A stretch of DNA of 64,000 bases from Desulfovibrio psychrotolerans. Lineage in GTDB: Bacteria; Desulfobacterota; Desulfovibrionia; Desulfovibrionales; Desulfovibrionaceae. The position numbers were made by a program, and so were the translations under genes. Location of the stretch: NCBI RefSeq assembly GCF_013340305.1, contig NZ_BLVP01000001.1:310001-374000 (forward strand). Reading direction: 5' to 3'. Below the pieces are notes generated by a model that saw only the letters and a list, made by a program, of their open reading frames with translations, did no database searches and was not told the origin of the DNA. Of this stretch, positions 3,162-27,655 are shown in pieces. Numbering within the stretch: position 1 is the first letter of the stretch; every line of letters begins with the position of its first letter.

Positions 3162-3520
3162 GGGGGCGCCCTGGTTTCGACGGGGATTGAAGATGCCGGA
3201 GTGGCAGGCCGAGGCGCCGCTGGCCTCGTTAAAAGCGGCACAAAAGTAATTGCCAACGATAATTACGACTACGCACTGGCTGCTTAATTGCAGTCACATC
3301 CATGCAGCGGACGCCTGATAGGCTGCACGGGTGACAAAAAGCATCAGGCTGGCTTCCGATGGCGTTTGCCCCTGAGGAAGTAAGAACTTTCAGACAAACT
3401 GGCTGCAAGCCACCTGGTCATGGGTAACACTTGCAGCGAGATTATGAACATGACCTAAGCCTGTAGAAGCTTCGAGCGGACCGTTCTCGGACGCGAGTTC
3501 GATTCTCGCCGCCTCCACCA
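3162..3520 (+). ncRNA. ssrA: Transfer-messenger RNA (tmRNA)
   Basis: The 5' end GGGGGCG pairs with CGCCTCC just before the encoded CCA at 3518-3520, forming the tRNA-like acceptor stem with one G-U pair. The typical GGTTTCGACGGGG block follows the 5' end, and GAGTTCGATTCTCGC forms the T arm near the 3' end. The tag reading frame starts with the resume codon GCC at 3252 and ends at TAA 3285-3287, giving the tag ANDNYDYALAA. The product rescues stalled ribosomes and marks their nascent proteins for proteolysis. It is a one-piece tmRNA of about 359 nt. Confidence 0.97.
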
Positions 3521-20333: not shown

Positions 20334-20366
20334 CCCCCGCGCCGGTAATGCCGGTGCGGGGGTTTT
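20334..20366 (+). terminator. Rho-independent terminator after the PhsAB-like pair
   Basis: CCCCCGCgCCGG pairs with CCGGtGCGGGGG around a TAATG loop and is followed by TTTT. It lies about 57 bases after the stop at 20277. Confidence 0.75.
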
Positions 20367-20524
20367 CCCGTCTGATCTCCCCTGCTCACTTGCTCCCCTG
20401 CTCCTTTGGGGCAACCAACATGCACAGTCAGGCCGCAAACCGCATCCGCCGCTTTCAACCTGAACCGCATTCTGATAGACTGTTCCCCATAGCCCCTTGC
20501 GGGCACATGCCTAAAGGAGAATCC

Positions 20525-21247
20525 ATGAACGAGCAAAAATGCCAGTCCTCGGCCCTCGTGCTTTCTGCCCTTGCCCTCGCCGTGGCCATTGTTGCGGCAA
20601 GCGTCATTCTGGGAAAAGCCGTCGGAGAGTTCAAAGCCTACGACCGCTACGTCTCGGTCAAAGGCCTTGCGGAACAGGAATTCCCCGCAGACAGCGTGAT
20701 CTGGCCTATCAGCTTCACCGTTACCGCCAACGAACTGCCGGTCCTGCAACAGAAGATTGAAGAATCGGAGCTGCGCATTCAGGCATTTCTGGCGCAGCAC
20801 CAATTGGAGGCAGCCGACAAGACCCGCTCCACGCCCCGCATAACAGACCATTATGCCTACGGGGCCAACCCGGACCAGCGCCCGCCCCACCGGTATTCCG
20901 CAGAGGCGGTGCTCACCGTCCGCTCCGACCGCATACAGGCTGTTAAGGCCGCCATGGCAGCCTCCGGCGGCCTTCTCGCGCAGGGCGTCATGCTGGTCTA
21001 TTCCTATGACTTTCAGCCCCGGTTCGACTTCACCAGACTGAACGAGGTAAAACCGGAGATGATAGCCGCCGCCACGCGCAATGCGCGCGAAGCCGCCAAC
21101 CAGTTTGCCGCCGATTCAGGCAGCACGGTGGGCAGCATCCGCACGGCACGGCAGGGAGTGTTCACCATAGACCAGCGCGACCCTTACTCGCCCGAGATAA
21201 AGGTTGTCCGCGTGGTGACAAGCGTGGATTTCTTTCTGGAAAAATAA
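20525..21247 (+). CDS. SIMPL (DUF541) domain protein
   Basis: A 240-residue protein with an N-terminal hydrophobic anchor (about residues 10-31), then a periplasmic SIMPL domain. YVSVKGLAEQEFPADSVIWPISFTVTAN and the late TARQGVFTID follow the E. coli YggE/DUF541 pattern, although the function of that family is poorly defined (oligomeric rings, stress-related). I chose the ATG at 20525 because AAGGAGA precedes it. It follows a terminator and appears monocistronic. Confidence 0.88.
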   Translation: MNEQKCQSSALVLSALALAVAIVAASVILGKAVGEFKAYDRYVSVKGLAEQEFPADSVIWPISFTVTANELPVLQQKIEESELRIQAFLAQHQLEAADKTRSTPRITDHYAYGANPDQRPPHRYSAEAVLTVRSDRIQAVKAAMAASGGLLAQGVMLVYSYDFQPRFDFTRLNEVKPEMIAAATRNAREAANQFAADSGSTVGSIRTARQGVFTIDQRDPYSPEIKVVRVVTSVDFFLEK

Positions 21248-21259
21248 CGGCTATACTGG

Positions 21260-21360
21260 GCGGGCCGGAATCCGGCCCGCAATCCGATCACAACCGGGCC
21301 ACAATCGGGCCAGCAGTCCGATCACAACCGGGCCGCAGCTCAACCACAGTCCGGGCCACC
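21260..21360. repeat. Palindrome and interspersed direct repeats
   Basis: GCGGGCCGGA-A-TCCGGCCCGC (21260-21280) is a perfect 10-bp-arm palindrome just after the SIMPL stop and may act as a weak terminator. It is followed by two copies of TCCGATCACAACCGGGCC (21283-21300 and 21317-21334, period 34) and further short CGGGCCA units up to about 21360. Confidence 0.75.
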
Positions 21361-21383
21361 GTCCGGGCCAGCCCCCGCCCAAC

Positions 21384-21947
21384 CTACAGAGGCAGCATCC
21401 TGATAATATGGTCGCCTATGCGGGCAACGGTTTCCGGCGGGTCTCCGTTCTTGAAGGTAATCTCAATATCAGCCATGGCGGCAGGGTTCTTGCCCTGCAT
21501 ATCCATGACCGGGGCACCCCGGTGCCTGTCTTCACTCTCCGCCACAGGCATCTGGATAACAGGGACCGCATCACGCCCCAGCCCAGTAATGGCCCGGACC
21601 ATGGTTTTAAAATCAAACCCCTTCTTGGTCTCCTTAGCTTCCTCAAAACCAGTCAGCGATGCCTTAAAGTTGATACGCACCGTATCAATAACCAGCGATG
21701 AAGGCGGGGTAAGGGCTATCAGCGGCAATTCAACGGCCCTGTACCGCACCTCCCCGCTCTCCACAAAGGGTAGCTGCACCACAGTAACCTTGGGCCTGCC
21801 CTTTTCCAGGTCATCATACGTTGCGTTTTCGTCATCAAAATTGAAATAACGCAGCAGCACGCGCATGTGCTGCTGCTCCGATATCTGCTGCGCCCTGACC
21901 ACAGAATTGTGCATGGCACGCAACATGTCGTCCAGTTTGATAGCCAC
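21384..21947 (-). CDS. DUF2589 domain protein (intact copy)
   Basis: A 187-residue soluble protein of the DUF2589 family, for which I know no established function. It has the family layout: an N-terminal helix (MLRAMHNSVVRAQQISEQQ), then a beta-rich body with VELPLIALTPPSSLVIDTVRINF, equivalent to the PLLAIVPIPSL segment of the other copy. The C-terminus (MADIEITFKNGDPPETVARIGDHI) is a short separate module. The start is GTG at 21947, 7 bases after GGGAGG; an ATG nearby is out of frame. It is the last of four genes transcribed leftward from about 23315. Confidence 0.85.
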   Translation of the reverse strand: MAIKLDDMLRAMHNSVVRAQQISEQQHMRVLLRYFNFDDENATYDDLEKGRPKVTVVQLPFVESGEVRYRAVELPLIALTPPSSLVIDTVRINFKASLTGFEEAKETKKGFDFKTMVRAITGLGRDAVPVIQMPVAESEDRHRGAPVMDMQGKNPAAMADIEITFKNGDPPETVARIGDHIIRMLPL

Positions 21948-21970
21948 GGCTCATCCTCCCTGCCCCTGTC

Positions 21971-22234
21971 CTATTCGTCCCATGACGGCTTGCGAGGAAA
22001 TCCCACATGATACGTCGTCGCCTGCATCACCACCTGATGCTCCCCCACGGAATACACACCAAAGCTTACGTCCCGGCCGATAATCCGTCCCCGGGGCACC
22101 TCGTTGAGGCATCTGTTAAGCTCACTTACCTGACGATCCCTCTCGGCATCGGTGGCCTGAAGATTGGGATTCGTCGACCCCACGGTAATTTTCTTGATGA
22201 ACCGCACATCTTCCAAGGCAACGTCGTTGTTCAT
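21971..22234 (-). CDS. Small protein of the DUF2589 operon
   Basis: An 87-residue protein of unknown family. The ATG at 22234 has a purine-rich Shine-Dalgarno (AGAGGGCGGGA), better than the start five codons upstream. The sequence is polar with a beta-rich second half (RGRIIGRDVSFGVYSVGEHQVVMQ) and no signal or membrane segment. It lies between the two DUF2589 genes, 23 bases before the intact copy, so it is likely part of the same pathway or complex. No function can be assigned. Confidence 0.65.
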   Translation of the reverse strand: MNNDVALEDVRFIKKITVGSTNPNLQATDAERDRQVSELNRCLNEVPRGRIIGRDVSFGVYSVGEHQVVMQATTYHVGFPRKPSWDE

Positions 22235-22340
22235 TCCCGCCCTCTGCATGCGCTGTCAGAACGCTGGTCACGCACGGCTACACATTGATGCATGAATGCT
22301 CCAGACCCATGCCGCGTGTCCTGCCTCCGGTCTTCCGTGT

Positions 22341-22369
22341 GGTCCGGCAGCACTGCACCCTGCCGGACC
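22341..22369 (-). repeat. Intercistronic stem-loop
   Basis: GGTCCGGCAG and CTGCCGGACC form a perfect 10-bp stem with a 9-base loop between the frameshifted DUF2589 gene and the next gene. It lacks a T run, so attenuation or mRNA stabilisation is more likely than termination. Confidence 0.6.
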
Positions 22370-22394
22370 GGTGCCTTGAGCAATCCGTTCACGC

Positions 22395-22975
22395 CTACTG
22401 CTTGGGTTCGGCAGAAGCCAGCGGCACGGGAACCACGCTCTTGTTCATGATATCGAGCACACGGGCAAGCCCTTCGGAAGTGCCGTTATCCACGGCTGTC
22501 ACCTGCACGTGGTATTTTGCGGACTTGTCCGTGGACCGCGTGTTTTCCTGATGCGTGGAAACAGAGCCGGAAACCTTGACGCTCACCTTAAAAGGACCCC
22601 ATCCCACCGAACCGGAGCTTCAAACGCTCCCTGCTTGTCGGACGATTCCTTGCTCGATTCGCTACTGCGCACCTCCATATCAAAGGTAATGTCCACATTG
22701 CTCACCTTCAGGCTGGGAATGGGAACAATGGCGAGCAGCGGCGTGGAAATCTGATACTCCACCGGCTTGTTGTCCGGTCCGGGCACGCTGTAGCGGAAAT
22801 CCGCAGTGCGCACTTCCTGATTAGGCTTTCCGTCGTCACCTATCTGAAATCCCACCGCCTGAATGAAATCGCTGGTTGCCTGTGCCAGCTTGAGGTTGGC
22901 GGTGCATGCTGCGGAAAGCGGGCTGCCGATAAGCTCTTCCATGGGCAAGCCCCTGAATTCATCACCCATTGCCAT
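22395..22975 (-). pseudogene. DUF2589 domain gene interrupted by a frameshift
   Basis: The first part (ATG 22975, good AAGGAG Shine-Dalgarno) reads ELIGSPLSAACTANLKLAQ and STPLLAIVPIPSLKVSNVDITF, clear DUF2589. It leaves the family at about 22622 and stops shortly after. The next frame carries the missing second half (SSGSVGWGPFKVSVKVSGSVS through VDNGTSEGLARVLDIM) to 22395. Joining the two gives about 193 residues, the normal length. One base appears to be missing around GCGTTTGAAGC (plus-strand 22618-22626). A -1 shift would also restore the frame, but no classical slippery heptamer is seen. It may be a real mutation or a sequencing error. Confidence 0.85.
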
Positions 22976-23014
22976 AACAACTCCTTGTGTTTTCGGTGAA
23001 AATCATTCTCCTGA

Positions 23015-23230
23015 TCAGCCCGTAAACTCCAATCCGTTCTCCGGCGGAGATGACTGATTCGACCGATACGATCCCGCCCTGACATTCCACATGCCGCCGA
23101 GCGTTGTTCCCAGCCATCGTTCAATGCGCGTTATAAGCGTTGCATCATGCACATGCGTGTTGCATCTCCAATACACCCGCACCATCACGCCGCTTACGCT
23201 ATTCTGAAAATTTTCAATACAATAGGCCAT
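23015..23230 (-). CDS. Small protein, first gene of the DUF2589 operon
   Basis: A 71-residue protein of unknown family, with a strong Shine-Dalgarno (AGAGGAG) 5 bases before the ATG at 23230. It has no signal peptide; a beta-rich N-terminal half (VSGVMVRVYWRCNTHV) is followed by an Arg/Trp-containing middle and a polar tail. It is the first gene after the promoter candidate at 23322-23350, and 39 bases separate it from the DUF2589 gene. No function is known to me. Confidence 0.6.
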   Translation of the reverse strand: MAYCIENFQNSVSGVMVRVYWRCNTHVHDATLITRIERWLGTTLGGMWNVRAGSYRSNQSSPPENGLEFTG

Positions 23231-23321
23231 TTTTTCTCCTCTGGTATGCAGTATGGCGATCCTTTAAGGGCATTCGCAGGGCTTCTGGGAGCGATCATAA
23301 AACGTATAGCCGATATATGTT

Positions 23322-23350
23322 ATTATATACTGACCACAGCACGTTTGGAA
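23322..23350 (-). promoter_or_regulatory. Probable promoter of the DUF2589 operon
   Basis: On the minus strand TTCCAA (23350-23345) and a perfect TATAAT (23327-23322) are 17 bases apart. Transcription would start near 23315, about 85 bases before the first ATG. This AT-rich patch contrasts with its GC-rich surroundings. Confidence 0.6.
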
Positions 23351-23495
23351 AGATTAAAGAATCGTTTCAAGAAAGCGGCCCATTACAGGGCTGACCAAGA
23401 CTGGTTGAAAAATGTTAACCAGTTAGGCGGGCAGGATTGAAAGGGAAAATCTATTGGCAGGAAGACAGCCGACATACGCCAAGCATAACACGGCT

Positions 23496-23540
23496 GGCCC
23501 GACAGGCCCGACAGGCACGACGGGCACGACGGGCACAGCT
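23496..23540 (+). repeat. Five tandem 9-bp repeats coding for Gly-X-Y
   Basis: Units are GGCCCGACA twice, GGCACGACG twice and GGCACAGCT once. In one frame they read as collagen-like GPT-GPT-GTT-GTT-GTA, followed by a few more codons and a stop. There is no good start codon with Shine-Dalgarno, so this is probably a remnant or a non-coding repeat. Confidence 0.8.
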
Positions 23541-23841
23541 GGTATAATGGAATTGACTGGAAAGTCAGGCGAAATAGGCTGAGAGGGCAAAGGGGGATTG
23601 CATAGCAGAGCAATAGATCATGCCTCACGGCAGACAACGCTGCGGGCACGGAACAAAATACAGAACAGGGTACAGAGCAGGGTGCGAAACGGCCATACTT
23701 TCAGGCAGATGGGAACAGACGGCAGGTATTCACAGCGGCTTCCTTTTGCACAGGGCGTTCACTCAGCGGACTCCGAAGGTCCGCTTACGCTCCCGTACGC
23801 CCTCCAAACACCGCCCTCCTCCAGCCCGCCATAGCACCGTA

Positions 23842-24561
23842 TTACGGAACAAAAACAGTCACGCTGACAGGACACCCCGTCCCGCCTTCCAGACGCAGCC
23901 CGCCGATAACAGCCGTGGCTCCTGTGGCGGGAAGCACGTTCAGACCGGCAAGACATTCCAGCACCAATCCGCCCGCCGCCAGCACGGTGCGGTTCACGGC
24001 ATAGCCATCATCCGCCGGACTATCCACGCCGTGCGTGTCTATGCCCACCCCGGCAGCGCCCCGCCCATGCATGAGCAGCTCTGCCGTCTCCTGCGCAAAG
24101 GCGGGAAAGCACATCACACCCTTCCCCTCCTGTTCCCGGCACAGTCCGAGGAACTGCCGGGGCTGCGCCCACAACACATCCCATCCTGTATGCACACAGA
24201 ACAGCGTTCCCGGCTGTACGAGCCCGTTACGCCCTTCCCAGCCCGCCAGATGTTCCGGCAAAAACAGGGCACGGGCATCCCGTGCCGCATGTTCCGAAAA
24301 GTCAGCCACGGCAATGGGCAGCACGGGCGGCTCGTGCAGCACCTGCGCTATATCGGGTCCGGTGGGGAAAAAGGTATTCGGCGCATTGCAATGCGTGCCC
24401 CCATGCTCGCTCATGGAAAAAGCACGCAGGGCAAACCCGTGCTCTGCAATATCAGCGCAGGGCATAAACCGCGTAGCCGGATCCCCCGGCCACAGAGGCA
24501 TTCCCTCATAAACAGGGTGGGAACAATCCACAATGCGACTATAGGTTATGCAGTGCTTCAT
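23842..24561 (-). CDS. Cyclase family protein (kynurenine formamidase-like)
   Basis: A 239-residue metal-dependent hydrolase of the cyclase/KynB fold. The start IVDCSHPVYEGMPLWPGDP is typical. The metal motif normally reads H-x-G-T-H-x-D-x-P-x-H; here it is HGGTHCNAPNTF, with Asn for the metal-binding Asp and Thr for the last His, so the metal site is changed. GIDTHGVDSPADD and VLECLAGLNVLP near the C-terminus match the family. I use the ATG at 24561; the frame extends to 24642 without family similarity. No neighbours of tryptophan degradation are present, so the substrate is unknown. Confidence 0.85.
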   Translation of the reverse strand: MKHCITYSRIVDCSHPVYEGMPLWPGDPATRFMPCADIAEHGFALRAFSMSEHGGTHCNAPNTFFPTGPDIAQVLHEPPVLPIAVADFSEHAARDARALFLPEHLAGWEGRNGLVQPGTLFCVHTGWDVLWAQPRQFLGLCREQEGKGVMCFPAFAQETAELLMHGRGAAGVGIDTHGVDSPADDGYAVNRTVLAAGGLVLECLAGLNVLPATGATAVIGGLRLEGGTGCPVSVTVFVP

Positions 24562-24665
24562 AACTGGCTCACAGGTTTTGAAAAATAGTAATAAACAACG
24601 GGCAAACGAAAAGGCGCCATTCTCAGCCTGTACAACGTTCACCTGCCGTTTCCCGCCCGAAAGGC

Positions 24666-24915: not shown

Positions 24916-25069
24916 AAGGGTTAAATGCTGCTTACAATGTTTTCGCAAACCATAGCCGCTCATAGCGGCATTGCCTAGCGATATATGTTCCACGGTTCCA
25001 CGGCAGGCGGTACATGCCGATACCCGCCGTGCTGAACAAATGGCCGGAAAGCAAGACCGAGGTAACATC

Positions 25070-27655
25070 GTGGCCCTATTCCACTGCAAGGCATGCGGAG
25101 TCCAAAAGAACGTCCCGGACAGATTTGCGGGTACCAAAGTGCGCTGTTCCTCATGCAGACAGGCGGTACTTGTCACGCCAACCCCGGAACAGGCCCCAAA
25201 AGCCCCCTCAGGGGAGCTTGAAAAATCCGGCATGCACGGCACGGACAATGCGCTCGCCAATGCTGCCGGAAACACCCTCCCCAAATCCGGCAGTACGGCA
25301 GAGCAGGCAGAAGGCGAGGCTTTTCTTGCCTCCCTGCATATTCAAGATGCCGCGCGCGCACCATCCGACCCTTCCCGCACAGCCAGGGATAATAACGCAA
25401 AACCTGCGGCACCAGCCCCCTCTGTCGATTTTGGCCTGCGTCAGACGCACAGTCGCCTCCCCCTTTTGCACGGAGGAATAACCAGAAACGTGCTGAGCGG
25501 TCTGGAGAGCGGCCTGCTGCTCATCTTCTTCTGCCTCTCCTTTGCCATGCTCATCCATGAAGCCGCCCCCGGCCTATGCTCGGCTGATCTGGTGTTCGGC
25601 ATGGCGCTCACTTCCTCCACGGTCTTCTGCATCGTCATGTCGGTGCGGGGCCGCCTGCCCGTTCTCGCGGCAGGACCGGAAACCGTAACATGCAGCCTGC
25701 TGTTCCTGTTTGCCCTCTTCCTGCACGGGCAAACAGGCTCCCTGTCACCGGAGCAGGCCAGTGCCACACTCATTGCAGGCATGATCATCACCGCCCTGCT
25801 CACGGGCATAGCGGCACAACTGGCCGCGCGCATGGATGCAGGCCGTGTCCTCAGGTTCATTCCCCAGCCGGTCATAGGTGGCCTTCTCGCTGCCGTGGGG
25901 CTGGTCCTCCTTCAGGGGGCATACAGGATAACGGCGGCAGACCCGTTCTGCCTGGCCGGAATAGCTCCGGCCATAAGCGCGGGCCAGTGCATGAAGTGGC
26001 TTCCTGCCCTCGGACTGGGCATAATACTCCTGCTCTTTGTCTACCGCTCCAAGAGCGCCCTGCGTAAGATTCTGCTGCTCGCACTGGTCATCGGCGCGGC
26101 TCACGGCCTATACATTTTCTCAGGCACGGGCATCTCCTCTGCGCAGGATGCAGGCACGCTGCTGGCTCCCGTCTTTCCGGCCATGCCTTGGCACATACTG
26201 CACGCCAGCATACTCGCAGACATCCAGTGGCCGGTTCTTCTGGAAGGACTACCCTATCTTGCAGCCGCCATGGTGCTGGTCATCCTCTCCCTTGCTGACA
26301 AGGTTTATACGCTGGAACTGCTTCTGGAAGACGACGTGGACCTCAACGACCTGCTGCGCAGCCTTGCCATGTCCAACACAATAAGCGCCATGCTGGGCGG
26401 GCTTCCGGGTTCCATATCCGTAAACCGCAGCATGGGTGCCGGTTCCGCCCGCAGGCACGGACCGCTGGCCGGTGTGGTGGCGGGCGTGCTCTGCGGCTCG
26501 GCCCTCTTCTGGGCGGGACCGCTGGCGGGCTACCTTCCGCGCTTCGTTCCCGCCGGTCTGCTTGTCTTTTTCGGTCTCGCCCTGCTGCGCAAATGGCTTG
26601 TAGACACTAAACGCCAGTTCACCCGGATGGACGATTACGTCCTTCTGGTCATCATATTTGTTACCGCCGCCGTATTCGGAATACTGGCCGGCATGGCAGC
26701 CGCCTTTCTGCTTTCCATCCTCGTTCTGGCGCACCGCTACAGCAAAAGCACCGTCATCAAACATCTTCTGCCCGGCAGCACCCACCGCAGCCGGGTGGAC
26801 AGAAGTGCCAATCATCTGGCCATGCTCAAAACGCGGGGCAATGAAATACTGATGATGCGCCTGCAGGGTTTCATATTCCTCGGTTCCACCACTCCCGTCA
26901 TCGCCGCCATCCGCAACCGCCTGCGCGACGATGCCCTGCCTTCCCTGCGCTACCTCATTCTGGACTTTTCGCTGGTAAACGGGCTGGCAGCGCAGGTCGC
27001 CATCAGCTTCACCCAGCTCAAACAACTCGCCTCCAAAAACGGTTTCCTACTCATCTTCACCAACGTCCCCTTCGAGGTTGAGCAGCAACTGGAATCCGCC
27101 GGTTATGCCCTGAACGAGGCAGACGGCAGTTCCATCTCCTTCGTGGACATGGATTACGCGCTGGAATGGTGCGAAGACCGCATCCTCTCCGAGGAAGGAC
27201 TGGACGACGAAGAGGATAAATCCCTCACAGACATGCTGGCTCCGCTTTTCCCGGAACCGGACAAGCTCTCCCGTCTCATGCCTTTTCTGGAACGCATGGA
27301 GTTCCGCAACAAAGAGGTCGTCTTCCGGCAGGGCGATACGGCAGACGCCATGTATTTCATCGAATCCGGCATGGTAAACATCCAGCTGGAACTGGGTGCC
27401 AGAAAGACCACCCGCCTCAAAAAGATGGGCCCGGGAACCGTCTTTGGCGAAATGGGCATCTACACCCAAGCCCCCCGCTCCGCCTCTGCCGTTGCCGCCG
27501 GAAAGTGCGTTCTCTACCGGCTTTCGCAAACCACGCTGGACCACATGCAACACTCAGATCCACAGTTACTTTCGGCCATCCACAGGTTCATCGTCCACCT
27601 GCTTTCGCAGCGCGTGAACGATGCCAACTTCCGGGTCATGGACCTGCTGCGCTGA
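25070..27655 (+). CDS. Zinc-ribbon / SulP anion transporter / STAS / cNMP-binding fusion
   Basis: An 861-residue multidomain membrane protein. A zinc-ribbon (CKAC and CSSC, first 30 residues) and a low-complexity linker (to about 135) precede a SulP/SLC26 transporter with about 10-12 helices (about 145-560). ILRFIPQPVIGG-like and MLGGLPGSISVNRS segments match SulP. A STAS domain (about 590-700) and a cyclic-nucleotide-binding domain (about 745-855, with FGEMGIYTQAPRSASAVA) follow. The usual phosphorylatable D-S-S/T of the STAS loop is replaced by LAAQV. I prefer the GTG at 25070, preceded by GAGGT; the frame is open to a TTG at 24971. Second-messenger gating of anion transport is inferred. 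Confidence 0.88.
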   Translation: MALFHCKACGVQKNVPDRFAGTKVRCSSCRQAVLVTPTPEQAPKAPSGELEKSGMHGTDNALANAAGNTLPKSGSTAEQAEGEAFLASLHIQDAARAPSDPSRTARDNNAKPAAPAPSVDFGLRQTHSRLPLLHGGITRNVLSGLESGLLLIFFCLSFAMLIHEAAPGLCSADLVFGMALTSSTVFCIVMSVRGRLPVLAAGPETVTCSLLFLFALFLHGQTGSLSPEQASATLIAGMIITALLTGIAAQLAARMDAGRVLRFIPQPVIGGLLAAVGLVLLQGAYRITAADPFCLAGIAPAISAGQCMKWLPALGLGIILLLFVYRSKSALRKILLLALVIGAAHGLYIFSGTGISSAQDAGTLLAPVFPAMPWHILHASILADIQWPVLLEGLPYLAAAMVLVILSLADKVYTLELLLEDDVDLNDLLRSLAMSNTISAMLGGLPGSISVNRSMGAGSARRHGPLAGVVAGVLCGSALFWAGPLAGYLPRFVPAGLLVFFGLALLRKWLVDTKRQFTRMDDYVLLVIIFVTAAVFGILAGMAAAFLLSILVLAHRYSKSTVIKHLLPGSTHRSRVDRSANHLAMLKTRGNEILMMRLQGFIFLGSTTPVIAAIRNRLRDDALPSLRYLILDFSLVNGLAAQVAISFTQLKQLASKNGFLLIFTNVPFEVEQQLESAGYALNEADGSSISFVDMDYALEWCEDRILSEEGLDDEEDKSLTDMLAPLFPEPDKLSRLMPFLERMEFRNKEVVFRQGDTADAMYFIESGMVNIQLELGARKTTRLKKMGPGTVFGEMGIYTQAPRSASAVAAGKCVLYRLSQTTLDHMQHSDPQLLSAIHRFIVHLLSQRVNDANFRVMDLLR

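Follow-up and report, generated by a model that had tools for sequence, protein, structure and literature searches.

The DUF2589 genes at positions 21384-23350 of a 64,000-nucleotide stretch of the Desulfovibrio psychrotolerans genome (contig NZ_BLVP01000001.1, positions 310,001 to 374,000; hereafter the window) look like a decaying copy of a three-gene cassette that spans at least five phyla. The cassette consists of two DUF2589 genes, A and B, and a gene for a small protein of about 90 amino acids (aa), S. In the window, A is broken, and a DUF5675 gene found beside the cassette in two relatives is absent (lost or never there). A and B occur as a pair in bacteria and phages, S belongs to the bacterial form, and the cassette is repeatedly linked to unrelated families of wall enzymes. 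The likeliest role of the cassette is that of a module linked to lysis or release, a reading that is held tentatively and at less than an even chance.

Counting the window's own genome (G000), DUF2589 was found in 5 of 99 genomes searched and S in 5 of 395 from the phylum; S adjoins A in all five. When the genome collection was scanned with four aligned A proteins, 88 relatives were found and 80 loci kept. Of these, the 27 with at least 50% identity (L019-L045) are of the window type and have hosts in Thermodesulfobacteriota, Campylobacterota, Pseudomonadota, Acidobacteriota, and Bacteroidota; they also include one plasmid, whose strain was placed in Myxococcota by the tree tool. A, S, and B are found together in all 27. 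S follows A in each (26 by gene map, L034 by phmmer), and B is always adjacent: it precedes A in most, whereas L019, L020, and L042-L045 share with the window and L012 an order in which it follows S. In L037, B is cut by the contig end. The S family comprises 28 aligned sequences with 10 invariant columns. The other 53 loci (L046-L098), denoted as distant type, contain no S detectable by phmmer, and two other partners of about 228 and 193 aa are present in 45 and 43 of them, respectively. An association of DUF2589 with small proteins, proposed by an earlier sequence-only reading of the window, is thus borne out for S in the window-type loci and not in the distant ones. Gene maps came from a caller aware of GC content at third codon positions (GC3), since an earlier caller picked antisense open reading frames (ORFs) in GC-rich loci, and duplicate loci (L001-L010, L013, L014, L016, L041) were dropped before clustering.

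A tree built from 56 A proteins separates the distant type from all others by a single branch (100/100); of the 19 phage A proteins, 17 group in one clade (94/98) that lies among the window type. Three types of DUF2589 locus can be told apart: the window type with A, S, and B; the phage type, which has B-A and seldom S; and the distant type, in which DUF2589 is accompanied by the two other proteins. The three-gene operon of the distant type spans bacteria and Methanoperedens, both partners being uncharacterised. Comparison of the ~228-aa partner (c1) with DUF2589 by hhalign gave 83.0% and 81.3% with two profiles and 22.6% and 0.3% with two others, which is suggestive only of a relationship. 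The gene following S (gene C) was considered as a further DUF2589 relative and not supported (hhalign 0.1-15.5%); some ORFs in this position score with the B profile in L121 and L122.

The surroundings of the cassette were surveyed in 34 cellular window-type loci (L012, L015, L017, L019-L045, L121-L124; the window not counted), and 23 of these carry a known or probable peptidoglycan-related gene in the examined flank. Twelve assignments are firm, based on GH19 or muramidase homology. GH19 enzymes occur in nine loci (L022-L028, L030, L034; by Pfam in L022, L028, and L034, by phmmer in the others) and show a peptidoglycan-binding N-terminus by eye, with a weak Pfam match for it in L034, and an N-acetylmuramidase (PF11860) is found in three (L040, L041, and L124 (= G351)). 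The 11 less firm assignments comprise DUF5675 in L012 and L019, with a weak match to Tlde1 in L012; a family in four Flavobacterium loci with an H...SAGC motif, which we take to be L,D-transpeptidase-like; a protein with a peptidoglycan-binding domain in L122, a look-alike by eye in L123, and a weak one in L036; and a protein shared by two Vibrio plasmids, inferred to be MltF-like from a tally of SLT and SBP_bac_3 (two members each). DUF5675 was also tried as a relative of the transpeptidase-like family and not supported (hhalign 1.9%). According to hydropathy, which is not a signal-peptide prediction, an N-terminal hydrophobic stretch is absent from 21 of the 23 wall-related proteins and present in the two from Vibrio.

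Copies were also counted genome-wide: 9 of 11 copies from four families, and 5 of 7 from the two firm ones, lie within 2.5 kb of DUF2589. In one set of 15 genomes, both muramidase copies and three of five GH19 copies fall within 2.5 kb of the cassette, and in another set of 15 both DUF5675 copies are within 1 kb of DUF2589. Of the two cellular genomes searched for the transpeptidase-like family, each has a single copy, which adjoins a window-type locus in one and lies at 2.3 kb from a locus of the distant type in the other. In a limited control, the same seeds gave two matches in the 53 distant loci (transpeptidase-like in L088, astacin-like in L085). A Pfam tally of 149 distant-type neighbours, a weak control in that it covers the 25 commonest of 192 families, contains no wall enzyme among those 25; its first member is a D-alanyl-D-alanine carboxypeptidase in L046. 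A genes with different wall enzymes fall on different branches of the tree, and this linkage to unrelated families on different branches suggests a working partnership rather than one inherited cluster.

Other genes recur near the cassette. A protein of about 280 aa lies near the cassette or a DUF2589 pair in 10 loci (L018, L028, L030, L036, L038, L039, L042-L045); three to four transmembrane segments are predicted in the four examined, and the one of L036 has no Pfam match above the cut-off. Proteins of cluster c8 (about 130-150 aa, probably secreted as judged by eye) are encoded downstream of the cassette in L022-L030, L033, L034, L038, and L039, and c8-like proteins were seen by eye near S in L122 and L123. 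In Pseudomonas, an EndoU-type nuclease (PF14436) with a signal-like N-terminus by eye is encoded downstream of the cassette and GH19 (L022:10850-11407).

Virus contigs harbor the A-B pair as well. First scans with a mixed A alignment and with S yielded 16 loci and one locus, respectively; a second scan with phage A proteins revealed 221 stretches encoding a relative, from which 80 loci were kept. Most of these 80 are closely related, and they are not independent of each other. According to automatic gene maps, B lies immediately upstream of A in 63 of them and one gene further upstream in 13, while three loci end at the contig edge and one is without B. S stands beside A in two loci of the first scans (L099, L100) and in 1 of 98 later ones. 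Several pairs lie among lysis genes: L101 shows the order holin (PF11351), B, A, small ORF, phage lysozyme; L102 and L104 show holin, B, A; and in L099, whose A groups with bacterial ones in the tree, a GH108 endolysin gene overlaps B and is followed by A and S. In L204, B and A precede a transpeptidase-like enzyme fused to an apparent peptidoglycan-binding domain (by eye). A lipoprotein-like ORF was also noticed by eye beside this pair. A transpeptidase-like ORF is present within the examined flanks of 53 of the 80 virus loci, on the same strand as A in L204 only, and in 40 of the 56 with at least 3 kb after A.

Release or lysis is regarded as the likeliest role on account of the repeated wall-enzyme linkage and of a precedent, the type 10 secretion systems (T10SSs), which are holin/endolysin/spanin clusters outside phages that can act by lysis (PMC10847048). 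The pairing of A with B suggests a mixed complex. It is supposed that A and B, mutually related and nearly always paired, would form such a complex in the cytoplasm and meet the inner membrane via amphipathic helices; S would be a bacterial add-on. The complex may then help the wall enzyme, or folded cytoplasmic contents, to get out in a manner similar to a phage lysis cassette or a T10SS. These steps, namely that a complex forms, that it contacts the membrane, that it causes release or lysis, and in which direction it acts (as helper, timer, or inhibitor), are inferred from gene neighbours. A helical hydrophobic moment is present in the N-terminal stretches of both A and B, and the A model shows a long N-terminal helix (residues 12-42, modest confidence). 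The AlphaFold2 model of S has a mean predicted local distance difference test score (pLDDT) of 81.6 and a beta-alpha-beta-beta arrangement; fold searches with it (best Foldseek E 0.12; Alba-like and ribosomal S10-like rows; VIA Z at most 4.8) assigned no fold. A Foldseek search with A returned 30 matches (best E 3.2) and was set aside because of the poor A model, and a sequence search of the PDB gave no match for the A profile and three at E 0.7-0.8 for S. No transmembrane-like hydropathy peak was detected in 80 phage A and 76 phage B proteins. Among bacterial proteins, a peak just above threshold appears near residues 86-100 in 7 of 30 A and one in 1 of 30 B proteins, and in three of the four A proteins of L121-L124; these peaks are taken as a hydrophobic strand, which is not proven. 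Neither A nor B matched a holin, endolysin, or spanin family where scanned.

In a bolder model, to which only a small chance is given, DUF2589 pairs would form a new class: soluble proteins of phages and bacteria alike that act on membranes to bring about lysis or release and are coupled to wall enzymes that can replace each other. Here, A would insert a Ser/Thr-rich alternating beta region (about residues 111-140, low model confidence) into the membrane, doing the work of a holin, and S might be a bacterial switch preventing cell killing. The A strands at 111-140 do alternate more than most shuffles (p 0.00-0.06 for windows starting at 111 to 131). This was not taken as support for a beta-pore, as other strands alternate likewise and many windows were tested.

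Several observations weigh against a role in lysis or release. No wall enzyme or holin lies beside the window copy, and 11 of the 34 surveyed loci (L020, L021, L029, L031, L032, L033, L035, L037, L038, L039, L121) are without a wall enzyme in the examined flank, five of them (L021, L031, L032, L035, L037) having an astacin-like protease instead. Some of the less firm assignments are fragile: the transpeptidase-like family matches nothing significantly in Pfam, NCBIfam, or the PDB, its label resting on a motif and on the single fusion judged by eye; DUF5675, a family without assigned function, has the weak Tlde1 match only; and the proteins of L122 and L036 match in the peptidoglycan-binding part, no catalytic part being identified in them or in L123. 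The enzyme families were picked after being seen near the cassette, and only the seeds used for the window-type loci were applied to the control of 53 distant loci. We give no P value, because of this choice and because clusters are inherited jointly in sister lineages. Elsewhere among the virus contigs, the pair stands beside SbcCD-like, exonuclease, UvdE, or portal genes, and a distance of about 30-40 kb separates it from the transpeptidase-like gene in three records (L150, L179, L190). The AlphaFold2 model of A is poor (pLDDT 61.5), and neither the A nor the S model has a convincing fold match.

The features of the window locus are listed in Table 1. The sequence-only reading had described an operon of four leftward genes encoding two DUF2589 proteins and two small proteins. 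Four leftward ORFs are indeed present, each start being preceded by a Shine-Dalgarno-like sequence (by eye), and the 87-aa product is real in that it belongs to a conserved family, with no Pfam family at E up to 1. Two DUF2589 genes are likewise confirmed, as B and both pieces of A pass the curated PF11655 cut-off of 23 bits, and A, S, and B adjoin each other as in other window-type cassettes. A, however, had been taken as intact and is not: it spans 22395-22975 in two frames, the break lying near the 3' end of the 22583-22975 part. In two sister genomes A is intact in a single frame (190 and 195 aa), and the 5' part of the window gene is 78% identical to the G005 protein. One alignment column is missing relative to both sister genes (L012, L019), and A is therefore frameshifted in this assembly; a programmed frameshift was rejected, as both sister genes are in frame. 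The 3' part shows 0.10-0.15 nonsynonymous (dN) and about 1.7 synonymous (dS) substitutions per site relative to the sister genes, which indicates that the sequence has been under constraint, and B shows a dN of 0.15-0.17.

Table 1. Features in and around the DUF2589 cassette of the window (coordinates within the 64,000-nucleotide stretch)
Feature	Coordinates	Strand	Match or remark
SIMPL (DUF541) gene, left border of insertion site	20348..21247	+	PF04402
DUF2589-B, 187 aa, GTG start	21384..21947	-	PF11655, 72.7 bits
Small protein S, 87 aa	21971..22234	-	conserved family
DUF2589-A 3' part, other frame, 70-aa open frame	22395..22607	-	PF11655 profile 112-154, 40.9 bits
DUF2589-A 5' part, 130-aa open frame	22583..22975	-	PF11655 profile 1-109, 100.8 bits
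71-aa ORF	23015..23230	-	weak resemblance to one L019 ORF
Stretch without DUF5675 gene; both sisters have a divergent DUF5675 gene	23231..23841	.	
Promoter-like site TTTCCA-18-TATAAT	23322..23351	-	not above chance
Putative cyclase gene, right border of insertion site	23842..24642	-	PF04199

Other parts of the earlier description fared less well. The 71-aa ORF had been counted as a protein of the set; among the loci compared it has no phmmer match outside the window's genome, and its resemblance to the sister-genome ORF is reached by 20 of 1000 shuffles, so that it was rejected as a conserved part. It is probably not part of the system and possibly not a gene. The proposed TATAAT promoter exists as a sequence; the region contains two promoter-like sites against 1.3 +/- 0.9 in shuffles. 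The short repeats noted in the flanks are present (21261-21370, 23496-23536, 23659-23683). The idea of a small, fixed system survives for A, S, and B and fails for the 71-aa ORF and for intactness in this genome.

Comparison within the genus supports a fixed insertion site. G003 and G005 harbor the cassette in the same gene order, with orthologues of B placed as in the window, plus a divergent DUF5675 gene (G003:C69:2088-2441 and G005:C1:813725-814081), and these two are the only ones of 10 genus genomes with DUF5675. The family has no match in the window's genome and no significant tblastn match in the window; candidate remnants were dismissed as short or repetitive-looking fragments (best E 0.003, 871-base subject, composition correction off). 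PF00182, PF11860, and PF18925 have no match in the whole window genome, nor among the neighbours scanned. SIMPL and cyclase genes border the site in G005 and G006 as well. About 90 bp separate the two matches in G006, which lacks DUF2589, as against 2.3 kb in G005 and 2.6 kb in the genome of the window, so that the cassette is present or absent at a fixed site. A test for a prophage found no phage structural genes around the window locus; the flanks are SIMPL, cyclase, and a sulfate permease-type family, together with a molybdopterin-type oxidoreductase (by eye). The permease-type transporter (24971-27655) is fused to STAS and cyclic-nucleotide-binding domains. An Rfam scan of the window gave a transfer-messenger RNA (tmRNA) alone, its gene lying at 3162-3520.

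The window set could also be an intact, expressed operon, the frameshift being an assembly error. Both A halves, B, and S have been under constraint (dN 0.10-0.26, dS above 1 or saturated), so that any break is recent or false, and the Shine-Dalgarno-like sites are good; this explanation is still considered unlikely, as this genome also lacks the DUF5675 gene seen in the sister loci and the 71-aa ORF is without support. On the level of function, the A-B pair may be a phage accessory unit with an unrelated job (e.g. host takeover or exclusion) that was picked up by bacteria, the wall enzymes being further phage-derived cargo in the same variable loci. The abundance of phage-A relatives (the 221 virus-contig stretches), the variable position of the pair beside lysis and other genes, the phage clade inside the window type, and the presence or absence of the cassette at a fixed site are in line with it. 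The bacterial flanks, however, do not resemble prophages: most of the 25 commonest of 111 Pfam families among 131 neighbours are cellular, with a Mu-type Mor activator in two, and one joint capture does not explain different wall-enzyme families on different A branches. A phage accessory unit is thus regarded as possible, if on the unlikely side.

Alternatively, the cassette might serve to carry, adapt, or protect effectors without signal peptides (the wall enzymes and proteases), which a contractile injection system would deliver. In G356, a cluster of contractile injection genes is located about 3 kb away from the cassette, the DUF5675 protein of L012 weakly matches Tlde1, and the astacin-like proteases of all five loci are without an N-terminal hydrophobic stretch. 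The cluster (G356:C10:104191-122971; L129, L122) runs in the opposite direction to the cassette; its sheath was matched (PF04984), its tube, baseplate, and other genes were recognised by eye. One such neighbourhood was seen, 7 of 15 genomes searched have no sheath match although all carry the cassette, and some virus contigs have the A-B pair beside holins, which makes this explanation improbable. No sheath or tube genes stand next to the window cassette; the sheath matches of G000 are on other contigs (C9, C36). A link to lysis or release remains the preferred, tentative reading. The constant partners and the repeated wall-enzyme linkage lead to a testable hypothesis on how enzymes without signal peptides leave cells, and the DUF2589 pair may be an additional component of phage lysis. 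For experiments, Pseudomonas, Azospirillum, and Flavobacterium offer cassettes in which no break is obvious.

A and B both score above the cut-off of PF11655, a family named as of unknown function; the open literature searched gave no published function of DUF2589 and did not name the accession. The DUF2589-related genes AF0414-AF0417 of Archaeoglobus fulgidus are reported to be up-regulated on lactate (PMC3949148). They resemble the cassette in being short and clustered, but a part in murein lysis would be hard to reconcile with an archaeal copy. The likeness to phage lysis cassettes lies in the pairs beside holin and/or endolysin-type genes (L101, L102, L104, L099, L204), the difference in the pairs found elsewhere in other virus contigs. 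We know of no T10SS that has DUF2589 proteins or S among its parts. The constant genes here are two DUF2589 proteins and S, with no recognised holin family in the bacterial loci or the window, and the hydrolase of T10SSs has no counterpart at the window, while a known or probable one is found in 23 of the 34 cellular loci surveyed in relatives. Six bacterial loci (L022, L025, L026, L029, L033, L039) contain a small ORF with one hydrophobic segment (no Pfam match for those of L026 and L029). As in T10SSs, peptidoglycan enzymes lacking a signal peptide (by hydropathy) are encoded in the bacterial loci, a layout that release of folded proteins would explain.

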